DNA of 12,467 bases from Myxococcota bacterium (GTDB lineage Bacteria > Myxococcota_C > UBA6777), in the NCBI GenBank assembly GCA_023150835.1, contig JAKLKB010000164.1:1-12467 (forward strand). The letters are read 5' to 3'. The notes under the pieces are model-generated. The model was not told the DNA's origin. It saw only the letters and a program-made list of their open reading frames with translations, and searched no databases. This document shows, one piece after another, positions 4,235 to 10,480 of the stretch. Every line of letters starts with the position of its first letter. The first letter of the stretch is position 1. The translations under genes and the position numbers were made by a program.

Positions 4235-6073
4235 TTAGCGACAATAACCGATCTTGTTGGTTTGTCCATCGCGTAGAGGGAACGTGACGCAGCTACGGTT
4301 GGTGCAATCGCGGGAGGGGTAGTCTTGATCGCAGAGGCGTTTGCAGACACCGCTGTTTCCAGAGGAAAGGCAAGCATAGCCGCGTTGGCAGCCTTTGGTG
4401 GCATCGCAGCTAAGAGGCGTGCAGGGCGAGCCTTCGCCGCCGTTGCCTGCGGGCAAGCAGACGAAGGAGTCTTTGCCCCAAGGAGCGCATTGTTCGTTGA
4501 TGGCGCAGTTGGCTGTAAAGGGGCTGCATGGATCTCCCGGAAAGCAAACGCCTTTTCCGCCTTCAATCAAGCAAAAGTATCCGTTGGGGCAGTCGTTTCG
4601 GCTGTTGCAGGACTGGCGGCAGATGCCGAGTTTTTCTTTGGCGCACCAAGCGATGCCTCGGCGAGTGCAAAGGAGGTCGCCTTCGCAAGAGAAGTCGTAA
4701 TCGCAGGGGCCACCGAGTTTTTCGGGGATAAGACAACGGTTTCCGCGACATTGGTAGGGAGGGTTTTGGGCGGGGCAATCGGCATCGCGCAGGCAGCCGA
4801 TCAAAAAAGTGAGGCGTCGAGTGGTTTGGTTTTGGTGTAGGTCGGTGGCGATGACGACAAAGCGGCGTTCTCCCGGGCCATAGAGGGAGAACGCCGCTTG
4901 AGCTTCGGCTTGGAAAGTATCGGAGGTGAGGGGGGCTTTTTGGAAGAGCAAGTTGTCGAGGCGTTGGCCTTTTTCGTCTTCGAGGTAAAAGGCGACGGAG
5001 GCGAGGCCCGCTTCGTCACGGGCGCGGGCTTCAAAGCGGATGCGTCCGAGGTGCGGGGAGTTGGGTTGAGGAGAAAGGATCTCGATGGTGGGAGGTTTGG
5101 CGTCAAGAGTGACTTGGAGTGAGGGCGGAGTGGGGGTGATGTTTCCGACGTTGTCGGTTCCGACCGCTTGGAGGGTGATGGCTTGTTGGTGTTGAAAGGC
5201 CGAGAGGTCGACGCTGATCTGATAGGGCGGGGCGTCGCGTGTGCCGACGACGACGGGTGGTTGGCCTTGGGCGGCGGCGAGGATCTCGATCTTGTGGAGG
5301 CCAAAGTCTTCTTGGATCTCCAAAAGAGCGGTGAATTGGAGGGGGACCGTTTGGGTGTTGGCGTCGGGGAAGAGGAATTGGAGTTTGGGGCCTTGGCGAT
5401 CGATGTAAGCGGTGCAAAGGCTGGTGGTTCCGCGATAGAGTCCACGCAAGACGACGGCAGAGAGGGTGGTTTCGGTGGCGTGCGGAAGTGCGGAGAGATC
5501 TACATCAAAGATGTAGGGTGGGCCTTCGAGGCGAGATTGTGCGATGCCTTGGACGTACAATTCGACGGGCGTGGGGGGGAGGTTGGGTGGAGTATCGAGC
5601 CATTCGAGGGTGAGTTTGACTTGATCGCGGAGGATGAGCGCGCCTTGTTGACATTCTTTGAAGCGAAGCCGCGCCTGACCATTGACGATCCAGACGGGGG
5701 CAACGGCTTTTTGAGCGACGGTCTGTCCTGTGAGCAGGACTTGGACAAAGATCTCGTAGGGACCGTCCAGATCGGCGGTGGTATCCCACTCGTAGAGGTA
5801 GGGGAATCGGTCGGGTTGGGTGCGGTGGAGGATCTTAAGCAGCTTGCTTTCTTTCTGGCTGCGAAGTCCGATCAAAAGTTCTTTGATCTCGCGTGTTTGA
5901 TTGGAATCGATCTCAACCAAAGCAAAGCCGGTCACTTGTGTTTCGGCGGTTGGTTGTCGGATCTGGATTGAGACGGTGTTTGGGTCGATCAGCGTTGTGC
6001 AAGCGGTAGGGGCGAGAAGCGCGAGGAGAAGGCCCAGACACAGCGCAAAAGAGGCGAACAGACGGGTGTGCAT
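4235..6073 (-). CDS. Putative lipoprotein: Ig-like domains plus 26-cysteine C-terminal region
   Basis: Function unknown. The 612-residue protein starts with a hydrophobic signal peptide and a likely lipidation cysteine C25 (LLAPTAC, a slightly irregular lipobox), so it should be an envelope or surface lipoprotein. Residues about 33-425 look like several beta-sandwich Ig-like domains; TDNVGN (306-311) and ARDEAG (351-356) are typical strand-turn motifs. Residues 427-612 hold 26 cysteines, presumably disulfide-bonded after export. The protein is a paralogue of the product of 8064-9968: same domain order, same cysteine count, and matching landmarks such as CRQ(S/R)C. It is the last gene of a three-gene operon; its ATG lies 11 bp after the stop of the preceding gene, with only a weak ribosome site (GAG). 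Gene boundaries are secure; the exact Ig family is not. Confidence 0.88.
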   Translation of the reverse strand: MHTRLFASFALCLGLLLALLAPTACTTLIDPNTVSIQIRQPTAETQVTGFALVEIDSNQTREIKELLIGLRSQKESKLLKILHRTQPDRFPYLYEWDTTADLDGPYEIFVQVLLTGQTVAQKAVAPVWIVNGQARLRFKECQQGALILRDQVKLTLEWLDTPPNLPPTPVELYVQGIAQSRLEGPPYIFDVDLSALPHATETTLSAVVLRGLYRGTTSLCTAYIDRQGPKLQFLFPDANTQTVPLQFTALLEIQEDFGLHKIEILAAAQGQPPVVVGTRDAPPYQISVDLSAFQHQQAITLQAVGTDNVGNITPTPPSLQVTLDAKPPTIEILSPQPNSPHLGRIRFEARARDEAGLASVAFYLEDEKGQRLDNLLFQKAPLTSDTFQAEAQAAFSLYGPGERRFVVIATDLHQNQTTRRLTFLIGCLRDADCPAQNPPYQCRGNRCLIPEKLGGPCDYDFSCEGDLLCTRRGIAWCAKEKLGICRQSCNSRNDCPNGYFCLIEGGKGVCFPGDPCSPFTANCAINEQCAPWGKDSFVCLPAGNGGEGSPCTPLSCDATKGCQRGYACLSSGNSGVCKRLCDQDYPSRDCTNRSCVTFPLRDGQTNKIGYCR

Positions 6074-6084
6074 GGCGTTTCTCG

Positions 6085-8067
6085 TTAGGGTTGGGGGGAA
6101 GGAGGCGGCAGAAGGATACGCCAGAGGGTGTTGTCTCCTGCGCTTGCGGCCCAGATCTCACGTTGTTTTTGGGCGTTGGGCGGTGAGACGGCAAGGCCAA
6201 GGATGCCGAGGCCGAGTTTGATCTGCCGCGTGATCTGGCGGGTTTGGAGATCGAGGATCGAGATCATCCCGCCGTCGCGATGGCCGATGGCAGCGATGCC
6301 ATCGAAGGCGATCACGGGTCCGGGGGCTGCATCGCCGCCTTGTTGATCGGAGAGCGTGAGGGTGTTGAGCAGTTGTCGCTGGTTGAGATCGACGATGTAG
6401 AATGCGCGCTTGGTGGGGTTGGTGACGACAGCGCGGGCGAGATCGCTTTCGGCGGCGATCTGATCGGCTCCTGCGGGGAGAGCAAGCGAGCGTGTGGTGG
6501 TTTCCGTGAATTGCAAGCCATCGATCCAAAGCAGATGTGTTGCGCCTGTGAGAAGCAAGTAAAGCCCGAAGGGATGGGTATTTTGGCCGATGGCTGTTTG
6601 CGTCGAAGGCAGGGCGTTGCAAAGGATCTGTTGGGAGGCGATATCGACGCGGCACAGGCCCGCTTCTGGAGCGCCGAGCGCATCTTGTCCGCGAAATCGA
6701 CCGATTAGTCGGCTTTGGAACAGCAAGAGATCACCGCTATGGTCACGTTTGGGGAGGGTCACAAAGGCTGCGCGTGTGCCGTCCTTGAGCGAGATCCTTT
6801 CGATGGATTGGGGCATTTGAACATAGGCGTGATCGTTGTCGAGGGCGATCCCTGAGGGGGATTCGGAGAGGTCGATGGTGTGGGTGAGTTTGGGAGGATC
6901 GTTTTGTCGATCAAAGAGCAAGACTTTTTTGGTATCGCGCAAAGAGACCGCTCCCCACGTTGCAGAAAGAGCCGTATAATGCGGATAGGACGGTGGAATG
7001 GCGATCGAAAAAGGTTGGTAGGTGCAGCCGTTGTCGATCTGCCCGTCGCAGTCGTTGTCAAGGTTGTCGCCGCAGATCTCAGAAGAGGCCGATGTATCGG
7101 GGATGCAAGTGACTTTGCCTGTGGGTGGGTGGCAAGCGGTGGTGCCTGTTTTGCAGACGCCTTGTTGTTGGGTTTCGCAGCGTTGGCCGGTTCCTTGGAC
7201 GTTATCGATCTGGCCGTCGCAGTCATTGTCGATCCCATCGCAGCTTTCGGTGGTAGGAAGGATCTCGTCTTCACAAGAAGACCAGCTTTTGTTGTTGCAA
7301 CGCTCGCGCCCTTCTTTGCAAGCGCCGATGCCTGCGGCAGTTTTGGGGCCGCTGTAGCAGGGACGCGAAAGGGCCTTCCCATCGGCGTCATTGTCGACTT
7401 GGCCGTCGCAATCGTTGTCGAGTCCATCGCAGATCTCGGCAGCGGGTAGGACTTGGCTTTGGCAGACGCCCCAGATCCCTGTGCTGTTGCAGGATTGACG
7501 GCCTTTTTTGCATTGCGTTCCCGGGAAGGTGAGCGTTTTTTCGATCCCGTCGTAGCAATCGCGAGCCTCGCCCGGCGTACATTCGACCTTGATACAACCC
7601 AGTTCGTCGATCTGTCCGTTGCAGTTGTCATCAACGTTGTTCCCGCAGTATTCGTCATTTCCGGGCTTAATCAGCGGATCGTTGTCGTTGCAATCAAGGG
7701 GAGGGGGGTAGCCGTCTTTGTCTTTGTCCTCTTGGGTGGGAGCGCATTGGTTGCCGACGCAGACTTGGCCTTTTTCGCATTCGATGTGGTAGCGGCAACC
7801 GTCGATACAGATCTTTTGGAAGCTGTTGCAATAGGTACGGGGTGGGCAGTCTTTGTCTTCTTGACAGGGGCCGCCTTTGTTGCTGCATGACCCGAGCAAG
7901 AGAAGCAGGGGGAGAAACAAGAGAAGCAGGGGGAGAAACAGCAAGAGTGGGCGACAAGATGTGCGTACATTCGACTGTGAGCGCGGAAGGCGCCATTGCA
8001 TCGGCAAAGTGAGAACCCAGCGTGAGAATGCAAACGAGAGAAGAGTGAGAATCCAGCGTGAGATCAT
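6085..8067 (-). CDS. Putative lipoprotein with four MopE-type metal-binding motifs and a probable beta-propeller
   Basis: Function unknown. In the 660-residue reading, the lipobox LGSC gives lipidation at C61. A cysteine-rich segment follows (68-108), then four motifs of the MopE putative metal-binding kind: a full copy with DKDKDGY, DCNDNDP and a DDNCNGQIDE end (114-155), and three short copies around CDGLDNDCDGQVD (213-225), CDGIDNDCDGQID (276-288) and NLDNDCDGQID (335-345). The Asp/Asn spacing suggests calcium or another cation. Residues about 350-655 contain repeated strand patterns such as ISILDL and DNTLWRI, consistent with a beta-propeller. ATG 8067 overlaps the preceding gene's TGA as ATGA, suggesting translational coupling. 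It leaves 60 residues before the cysteine, long for a signal peptide; ATG 8001 would leave 38 and is a serious alternative. TTG 8073 is also open. Confidence 0.87.
   Translation of the reverse strand: MISRWILTLLSFAFSRWVLTLPMQWRLPRSQSNVRTSCRPLLLFLPLLLLFLPLLLLLGSCSNKGGPCQEDKDCPPRTYCNSFQKICIDGCRYHIECEKGQVCVGNQCAPTQEDKDKDGYPPPLDCNDNDPLIKPGNDEYCGNNVDDNCNGQIDELGCIKVECTPGEARDCYDGIEKTLTFPGTQCKKGRQSCNSTGIWGVCQSQVLPAAEICDGLDNDCDGQVDNDADGKALSRPCYSGPKTAAGIGACKEGRERCNNKSWSSCEDEILPTTESCDGIDNDCDGQIDNVQGTGQRCETQQQGVCKTGTTACHPPTGKVTCIPDTSASSEICGDNLDNDCDGQIDNGCTYQPFSIAIPPSYPHYTALSATWGAVSLRDTKKVLLFDRQNDPPKLTHTIDLSESPSGIALDNDHAYVQMPQSIERISLKDGTRAAFVTLPKRDHSGDLLLFQSRLIGRFRGQDALGAPEAGLCRVDIASQQILCNALPSTQTAIGQNTHPFGLYLLLTGATHLLWIDGLQFTETTTRSLALPAGADQIAAESDLARAVVTNPTKRAFYIVDLNQRQLLNTLTLSDQQGGDAAPGPVIAFDGIAAIGHRDGGMISILDLQTRQITRQIKLGLGILGLAVSPPNAQKQREIWAASAGDNTLWRILLPPPSPQP
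7897..7938 (-). repeat. Perfect 21-bp tandem duplication in a signal peptide
   Basis: Two identical 21-bp units (7897-7917 and 7918-7938) encode successive FLPLLLL-type heptapeptides in the hydrophobic core of the lipoprotein signal peptide. The duplication is in frame and makes the hydrophobic core unusually long. A further partial unit follows on the plus strand. Confidence 0.85.
8008..8064 (-). repeat. 36-bp-spaced direct repeat at the start of the MopE-type gene
   Basis: A block reading AGTGAGAAYCCAGCGTGAGA occurs at 8008-8027 and again at 8044-8063, 36 bp apart, with one difference. In the gene's frame it gives SRWILTL and SRWVLTL. It lies in the segment whose translation is uncertain (between ATG 8067 and ATG 8001), so it may be coding or part of a leader. 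Confidence 0.65.
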
Positions 8068-9968
8068 TGGCAAACCCCGTAGCGAAGGGGCTTTCCGCCA
8101 AAGCTCCAGATCAGCGGATTACAGCGTTCACCTGTGGGGCAGGCAGGGCGCTGTGTGTCGCAGACTTGGGCGCAGACGGTACGGCCTAGATTGATCAAGA
8201 TGATGCACCAAGCGTTGCGGGTGCAGTTGCCTTGGGCGCTACAGCTTTGTTGGCAAGAGCTACCGAGCGGGTTGGGGCCGATGGGTACGCAGTAAGAAGC
8301 GTCATCATCAGCAACGATGCAGTGTGTTCCGTTTGGGCAATCGTTGCCAAGAGGGGTGCAAGTCTCGGTGGGCAGGCATGTTTTTGTGTTGCGATCACAA
8401 TAATAGCCTTTGTCACACGGATCGGCGGAGACAAATTGATTTCCGGGGTTGCAGCGTTGGCGGCAATAGGTTTGCGGAGAAGTCGTACAGACGGGTGCGT
8501 TGCCGAGGACGCAATCGGTTCCGATCTCACAGGGCAGATCGGCATGGCAGCGTTCGCCGAGGCGCGCAGGGGTGAGGCAACGGGTCTTGTGACAGATCTG
8601 ACCGCCTGTGCAATCGGTGGAGTCGACGCATCCGACCAAAAACAGGCGTTCTTGGGTGGCGATATTTCCCGAAGCATCGGTGGCTTTGATCGAGAAAACA
8701 AAGCGGCCTGTTCCGTATTGTTTGCGGAGATCTTTGAGCGTGATCTCTTCGGTGATATCGGGGGTGGTATAGGTTTTTTTGTGAAGTTCCCACGTTTTTT
8801 TGGTTTGCTCGCTTTTGAGGGTGATGACGACCTGTGCGAGTTGTTGGTTGTCGGTGATGCGTGTGGCGAGTTTGACTTGATCTTCAAAGACTTGCCCTTC
8901 GCCCGGGGTGCGGATGAAGATCTCGGGAGGAACAGGGTCGATGCGGACACGGATCTGGGTGGGCGGATCGGTGAGATTGCCAGCTTCATCGAGAGCGCGG
9001 GCGGAAAGGACGATGCTTTGTTCGCGGTTATAAGAGGCGGGGAGGGTGATGTAGATCGGAAAATCGGGGGCTTTTCGACCGACCCAAGGTGCGTTGGGTT
9101 CGGGACAGTAGGGATCTTTGGCACCTGTTGCGGCGGAGGGGTCCGAGCATCCGCTCCCATCGACAAGGAGTCGAACCTCGCGCACGCCAAAGCGATCTTG
9201 CGCATCGAAGCGAACGAGGAAAGAGCGACCGACAAGGGTATCTTCTTTTTCGGGTTCGATGAAACGTACGGTGGGAGAGGTGTTGTCGATGCGCGGAGTG
9301 CAGGTGATACGGCTAAGATTGCCGCGCAGATCCGTTCCTTCGACGTTGAGATGAAGGGTTGTGCCGTCTTGGAAGTTTTGGGTGGGGAGCAAGAAGCGAT
9401 AGGGTGCGATGAATTCAGCGGTGGTCGGGCCTTGTTGGCCGTCGATCGAGAGGGTGGGCGGTGCGCCAAGCTGTGTGTTGCTTTGGTTGATGGCGACGAG
9501 TAGGGCGTATGTGTCACGGATCCATTGTCCGTCGTAGCAGTTGACAAACCACAAGCGTGGTGGCTCGTTGAGGACTTGCACGAGAGTGATGCGCGATTCG
9601 ATGGTGCTGCCGAACTGATCGTGTGCGATGGCTTTGAGATGGTAGAAGCCATCGGGTACTTGGAAGGTTCCCCATTGGAAGGAGTAAGGGGCTCGGTGGA
9701 GCTCGGCGAGGATACGTTCGGTTTGTTGGGTGGTGCGGGTGCGTTGTTGGGGGGTGAGCCAGAGCGAGACGTGGTGGATGGTTTGATCGGGAGACACTTC
9801 GATACGGACAGGGATGATCCCTGAGACATGGCCGGGTTTGGGGGATTCGATGGAGACTTTGATCTCGACACGTTCTCGATAATCGTCATCGCATCGGCAT
9901 GCGCTGAGTGCGGCGAGCAGATTGATGCAAAGCCAAAACAGCGGATGCTGTAAGAAGACGCGGCGCAT
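8064..9968 (-). CDS. Putative lipoprotein: Ig-like domains plus 26-cysteine C-terminal region (first gene of trio)
   Basis: Function unknown. The 634-residue protein begins MRRVFLQHPLFWLCINLL and has a good lipobox LSAC with lipidation at C24. About four Ig-like (Big-type) beta-sandwich domains follow, roughly 33-135, 136-230, 231-345 and 346-446, with recurring turn motifs GTDLRGN (211-217), ALDEAGN (325-331) and ATDASGN (429-435). Residues 447-634 hold 26 cysteines in CxxxxDC, GxxC and RC patterns. It is a paralogue of the product of 4235-6073. I chose ATG 9968 because it places the signal peptide at the N-terminus. The frame stays open to a TTG at 10484, but that would translate the 18-bp repeats and hairpin element, so I reject it. 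The ribosome site is poor. Its stop overlaps the next gene's ATG by 4 bp, supporting an operon. Confidence 0.88.
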   Translation of the reverse strand: MRRVFLQHPLFWLCINLLAALSACRCDDDYRERVEIKVSIESPKPGHVSGIIPVRIEVSPDQTIHHVSLWLTPQQRTRTTQQTERILAELHRAPYSFQWGTFQVPDGFYHLKAIAHDQFGSTIESRITLVQVLNEPPRLWFVNCYDGQWIRDTYALLVAINQSNTQLGAPPTLSIDGQQGPTTAEFIAPYRFLLPTQNFQDGTTLHLNVEGTDLRGNLSRITCTPRIDNTSPTVRFIEPEKEDTLVGRSFLVRFDAQDRFGVREVRLLVDGSGCSDPSAATGAKDPYCPEPNAPWVGRKAPDFPIYITLPASYNREQSIVLSARALDEAGNLTDPPTQIRVRIDPVPPEIFIRTPGEGQVFEDQVKLATRITDNQQLAQVVITLKSEQTKKTWELHKKTYTTPDITEEITLKDLRKQYGTGRFVFSIKATDASGNIATQERLFLVGCVDSTDCTGGQICHKTRCLTPARLGERCHADLPCEIGTDCVLGNAPVCTTSPQTYCRQRCNPGNQFVSADPCDKGYYCDRNTKTCLPTETCTPLGNDCPNGTHCIVADDDASYCVPIGPNPLGSSCQQSCSAQGNCTRNAWCIILINLGRTVCAQVCDTQRPACPTGERCNPLIWSFGGKPLRYGVCQ

Positions 9969-10021: not shown

Positions 10022-10086
10022 GTTTTTGTGGGGCGCGGCCCCACGCCCCGCAAGGGGTCGTGGCCCCCTTGACCCCAGATCGGCGG
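10022..10086 (-). repeat. Two-hairpin dispersed element, inverted copy
   Basis: The reverse complement matches 2896-2960 across about 65 bp, sharing CCGCCGAT, GGGGTCAAGGGGGC and GACCCCTTGCGGGG. Stems: GTGGGG (10028-10033) with CCCCAC (10039-10044), extendable by a C-G pair, and CAAGGGG (10051-10057) with CCCCTTG (10065-10071). Where the plus copy extends the terminal stem with T-A pairs this copy has C-G, so pairing is kept while sequence changes. It ends about 54 bp upstream of the first lipoprotein start. Confidence 0.85.
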
Positions 10087-10363: not shown

Positions 10364-10471
10364 GGCGATGCGGAGTCTGTGGGCGATGCGGAGTTTGTAG
10401 GTGATGTAGAGTCTGTAGGGGATGTAGAGTTTGTAGGTGATGCGGAGTCTGTAGGGGATGTAGAGATTGCA
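10364..10471. repeat. 18-bp tandem repeat, six copies
   Basis: Six contiguous units start at 10364, 10382, 10400, 10418, 10436 and 10454. The consensus is GGNGATGYRGAGTYTGTA, with variation mainly at positions 3, 8, 9 and 14; the last unit is the most diverged. There are no spacers. On the plus strand the unit reads as GD(A/V)E(S/F)V hexapeptides but no ATG-started frame covers it; on the minus strand it reads as LQ-T-PH-type hexapeptides. It starts just after the gcvH stop. Confidence 0.92.
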
Positions 10472-10480
10472 GGCGAAAGA

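Follow-up and report, generated by a model that had tools for sequence, protein, structure and literature searches.

Three neighbouring genes for putative lipoproteins in an uncultured Myxococcota bacterium raise the question of whether they encode separate envelope proteins or the parts of a single system. The genes, termed A, B and C, lie in a contig of 12,467 nucleotides (JAKLKB010000164.1), the whole of which was analysed and is called the window below. A preliminary description, made from the letters of the window, had seen in them two cysteine-rich, Ig-like paralogues flanking a lipoprotein with MopE-type motifs and a propeller. The comparison covers five genomes of the phylum, which represent three genera of one family; G000 (7.56 Mb) is the genome of the window, and one of its relatives has a public record, CAUJFU010000312.1 ('Myxococcota bacterium KLAP109'). 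The main features are as follows.

8064–9968, minus strand: gene A, a candidate lipoprotein of 634 amino acids with lipobox LSAC24, Big_7 Ig-like domains and a tail with 26 cysteines
8070–8630, minus strand: 26-cysteine tail of A (residues 447–633), from the cysteine count
8064–8067, minus strand: overlap of the A stop codon (TGA) with the B start codon (ATG), giving ATGA; also found in G001 and G003
6085–8067, minus strand: gene B, a candidate lipoprotein starting with the ATG at 8067, with an LGSC lipobox, a Dickkopf-like module, MopE motifs and a propeller-like domain
6088–7023, minus strand: C-terminal YVTN-type propeller-like domain of B, from sequence profiles
6074–6084, minus strand: 11-bp gap between B and C; also 11 bp in G001, an ATGA overlap in G003
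4235–6073, minus strand: gene C, a candidate lipoprotein of 612 amino acids and paralogue of A, with PTAC25, Ig-like domains and a 26-cysteine tail
4238–4795, minus strand: 26-cysteine tail of C (residues 427–611), from the cysteine count

All three genes lie on the minus strand, and transcription would run from A through B to C. The 4-bp overlap and 11-bp gap on one strand, as first described, are exact on the coordinates. Junctions consist of ATGA or a short gap in G000, G001 and G003. In G002 and G004 the trio genes do not overlap, with gaps that range, according to the choice of start codon, from about 30 to nearly 200 bp; tight translational coupling is thus not universal. Promoter- and terminator-like sites in the window are no more numerous than in shuffled sequence, and searches against Rfam and for plasmids returned zero matches. 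Several repeats surround the genes. Between gcvH and gene A, immediately 3' of the former, is an 18/36-bp tandem repeat (10364–10473), and a 61-bp tandem repeat, present three times (2694–2879), separates radA from a cysteine synthase gene. A palindromic, G+C-rich repeat (GGGGTCAAGGGGGC...CCCCTTGCGGGG) is dispersed in intergenic DNA, at 2893–2960 and 10026–10085, with further copies in G001 (L041:15297-15361 and 18502-18625). The RadA homologue itself (560–2503) carries a long C-terminal extension of low complexity, rich in Pro, His and Ser, which is also present in G001.

By inspection, each of the three proteins begins with a signal-peptide-like N-terminus followed by a candidate lipidation cysteine: LSAC24 in A, LGSC in B (residue 61, counted from the ATG at 8067) and PTAC25 in C. 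The lipobox of C (PTAC) is non-canonical, as it is in some of the species. This cysteine, noted for each protein at the outset, is invariant across all A, B and C orthologues. A location of A, B and C in the cell envelope is very likely.

Alignment of the two outer proteins, which had been proposed as a check, finds them homologous over their whole length (BLASTP 176 bits, E=1e-51, 27% identity over 585 columns). Their local alignment score exceeds that of shuffled sequences by 82 s.d. for the full length, 43 s.d. for the Ig part and 18 s.d. for the tail. The tandem Big_7 Ig domains score 58 bits in A and 36 bits in C, above the Pfam cut-off of 24 bits, and the counts of 26 cysteines in each tail agree with those first reported. 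In a tree, the A proteins and the C proteins form separate groups (support 80/89 and 100/99, respectively), each tracking the genome tree; the duplication thus took place before the phylum diverged. These comparisons mark A and C as true, ancient paralogues, and the proposal that the outer genes arose by duplication agrees with both BLASTP and the tree.

In an alignment of nine proteins, five A and four C, drawn from four genomes, every one of the 26 tail cysteines is invariant, with exactly 26 in every sequence; only 8 of the 162 non-cysteine positions are invariant, and A and C share 22% identity at non-cysteine positions. Beyond the tail, every A and C protein keeps C144 and C223, and every A protein C274/C288. 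Apart from the lipid-bearing cysteine and the A-specific C26, the cysteine sets are even, as would be expected for disulfides, which supports the disulfide stabilisation suggested in the preliminary description. The exact retention of a 26-cysteine domain through an ancient duplication is strongly indicative of a specific disulfide fold. The domain has no family of its own in Pfam or NCBIfam. A tandem 13+13 cysteine repeat within the tail is a hint only (hhalign probability 64%), and is not significant against shuffles that keep the cysteine positions. With a pLDDT of 50, the structural model of A is weak and usable in the Ig region only; its fold matches mostly chains of the Ig, FnIII and cadherin type. 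A more distant relative of A (L048:6137-7918 and L049:7650-9431; about 590 amino acids) combines Ig domains, a divergent cysteine tail and a signal peptide. In G000 it lies near DUF58, vWA and GATase1-like genes, and a related frame is present in G003 (C50).

Homologues that were never adjacent would speak against a linked system. In each of the five genomes of the phylum, A, B and C stay together and keep their order and strand; in G002 the cluster spans two short contigs (C400 and C276) carrying A, whose start is cut off, B and C. Orthologues from different genera share about 40–48% identity. The flanks differ: gcvT-gcvH lies upstream in G000, G001 and G003, and a carboxyl-transferase gene and others take this place in G004. 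Since the trio is constant while the flanks change, what is conserved is the trio and not its neighbourhood. A functional tie to glycine cleavage was rejected on this ground, the gcv neighbours not being conserved in G004, as was a tie to cysteine synthase, the cysM neighbour not being conserved in G003 and G004. An extra exported-looking gene with a DUF6895 match lies directly 3' of C in G001 (L041:14075-15193); it is missing at the matching position of the window, of G003 and of G004. The trio is under strong purifying selection, as measured between two species of one genus (G000 and G001): dN/dS is 0.077 for A, 0.104 for B and 0.080 for C, and 0.074 for the neighbouring gcvT.

Against this background, there is little doubt that A, B and C form a linked system. 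The idea that they are chance neighbours, or the product of a recent local duplication of no functional meaning, has next to no probability: it is contradicted by synteny in five of five genomes at such identities and with changed flanks, and the A/C duplication preceded that divergence of the phylum which the tree shows. A more serious alternative is that linkage is kept for shared expression of independent lipoproteins that never meet in a single complex. Within the phylum, the full tail is found in A, in C and in one extra A-like gene of G004 (L045:7921-9870). The latter has neither B nor C beside it and is convergent with a gene for a fusion of FAD-oxidoreductase and GCV_T. A-type proteins can thus exist without B and C nearby, and other MopE and cysteine-rich proteins abound in the genomes; both observations favour independence. 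On the other hand, three genes whose order holds through three genera while their flanks change typically encode interacting products, and co-regulated independence appears rather unlikely. A physical complex of all three proteins is the reading we consider probable.

Four stretches of B match PF11617 (Cu-binding_MopE) with 83 bits and E=1.4e-23, where the Pfam cut-off is 27, in accord with the four MopE-type motifs counted in the preliminary description. B has 35 invariant cysteines: one in the lipobox, eight in the Dickkopf-like module, 24 in the MopE part and two in the C-terminal domain. The Pfam label would suggest a system for acquiring copper or another transition metal, and the Asp-rich stretch of MopE has been discussed as providing possible weak Cu(II) ligands (PMC3423442). 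The copper ligands of MopE are, however, Kyn130, His132 and His203 (PMC3423442), and the significant match between B and MopE (PDB 2vov) covers only residues 6–46 of MopE*, which excludes the site formed at 130–203. The shared part is instead the Dx[DN]xDG loop, a Ca2+-binding element in many folds (PMC3123361), and calcium stabilises MopE and protects it against proteolysis (PMC3423442). Each of the five B orthologues has, at matching places, five loops of the form Dx[DN]x[DN]G, some with N at the fifth position. As the high-affinity copper ligands of MopE fall outside the shared motif, the motif in B points to calcium rather than copper. The earlier suggestion of cation binding holds at the level of the motif, refined to calcium as the predicted ion in place of the copper of MopE.

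Abundance also bears on the metal. Across G000, at least about 150 PF11617 matches were found among 456 candidates (about 70 frames among the matches listed), and 14 well-known control genomes gave no match to the motif. Such numbers suggest a general building block and not the mark of a particular metal pathway; for motifs this abundant, the 'Cu-binding' label is probably better read as denoting calcium loops. An acquisition system for copper or another transition metal, which would also have to accommodate an even, invariant and disulfide-like set of cysteines, is thus very improbable.

The profile of the C-terminal domain of B (A2) matches the surface-layer YVTN propeller 1l0q (E=5.6e-18); the structural prediction for B (pLDDT 34) is too poor to use, so that this part of the first description stands as a profile-based assignment. 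The domain occurs once per genome, in the trio only, and gave one short, weak match in the other phylum searched. With the full 26-cysteine tail alone as the query, a search of 195 genomes of that other phylum found nothing at E<=1e-10. At 1e-6, a tail search of 386 mixed genomes matched the five of this phylum and none of the 381 others. In 193 genomes of the other phylum, matches to A and C were confined to the Ig part, save for a 968-amino-acid protein of G173 (L073) that matches across Ig part and tail. Because a limited set of candidates was scored in each genome, weak relatives could escape these scans. Ig domains and MopE motifs are common, while the full tail and the propeller are limited to this phylum among the genomes searched; within these searches, the statement that no such system has been described holds.

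Taken as a single functional unit, the trio could be an envelope-anchored, disulfide-locked lipoprotein assembly stabilised by calcium and not copper, and the chances of this reading are about even. Translation of A, B and C would be coupled, and the proteins would pass through Sec, receive their lipid and reach the outer membrane. There, A and C would provide two similar but non-identical arms, each with an Ig stalk and a rigid cysteine tail, which may pair with or flank B, and the Ca2+-bound repeats of B would present its propeller. If the assembly faces outward, it might serve adhesion, cell–cell contact or surface-layer architecture; an exposed function in adhesion or recognition is the leading conjecture, and a tentative one. 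An outer-membrane complex oriented towards the periplasm is the other option, in which a propeller lipoprotein would act as scaffold for Ig partners in envelope assembly or quality control, with no surface structure. It would suit three proteins that are all lipoproteins, are present in every genome of the sample and have a dN/dS like that of housekeeping genes. A very high content of disulfides is, like Ca-loop repeats and arrays of Ig domains, commoner in exposed extracellular proteins, and Pfam and NCBIfam searches gave no similarity to known envelope-assembly lipoproteins; both count against the inward-facing complex, which we regard as unlikely. The most far-reaching form of the outward-facing proposal is a machine for surface contact or architecture, with two arms sharing a 13-disulfide lattice, a calcium-loaded propeller lipoprotein between them and conservation like that of core genes, unlike any described recognition or S-layer system. 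It is a decidedly long shot. What had been a loose impression of many cysteine-rich MopE proteins in Myxococcota-like bacteria has become a defined unit of three genes, present throughout the phylum and amenable to expression and testing.

Several known systems share single elements with the trio. Proteins of the other phylum with an Ig array of the A/C type (e.g. L061-L072) match in the Ig part (profile ~38-383), but are mostly large and have other tails. MopE of Methylococcus capsulatus (PDB 2vov, PF11617) has the same Asp-rich DxDxDG...DCND motif region as B, with no significant match beyond it. Unlike MopE, B is a predicted lipoprotein and adds the Dickkopf-like cysteine module and the propeller; a search of the literature for Dickkopf-type Myxococcus lipoproteins found none. 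The C-terminal domain of B also matches the repeats of the surface-layer YVTN protein 1l0q, from which B differs in that its propeller is fused to MopE repeats on a lipid anchor and no PKD domain was found. In TraA/TraB, the contact receptor found in Myxococcus, a cysteine-rich surface protein is likewise encoded in an overlapping operon (PMC3325183), an analogy only: TraB is an OmpA-domain protein, whereas all three members of the trio are putative lipoproteins. PA14, the TIGR04201 cysteine repeat and MYXO-CTERM gave no match at E<=0.1 in A–C, and with these defining domains of TraA absent, the trio is not a member of the TraA family. Calcium also enhances TraA-dependent stimulation (PMC3325183), and TraA is the nearest working analogy for the trio.
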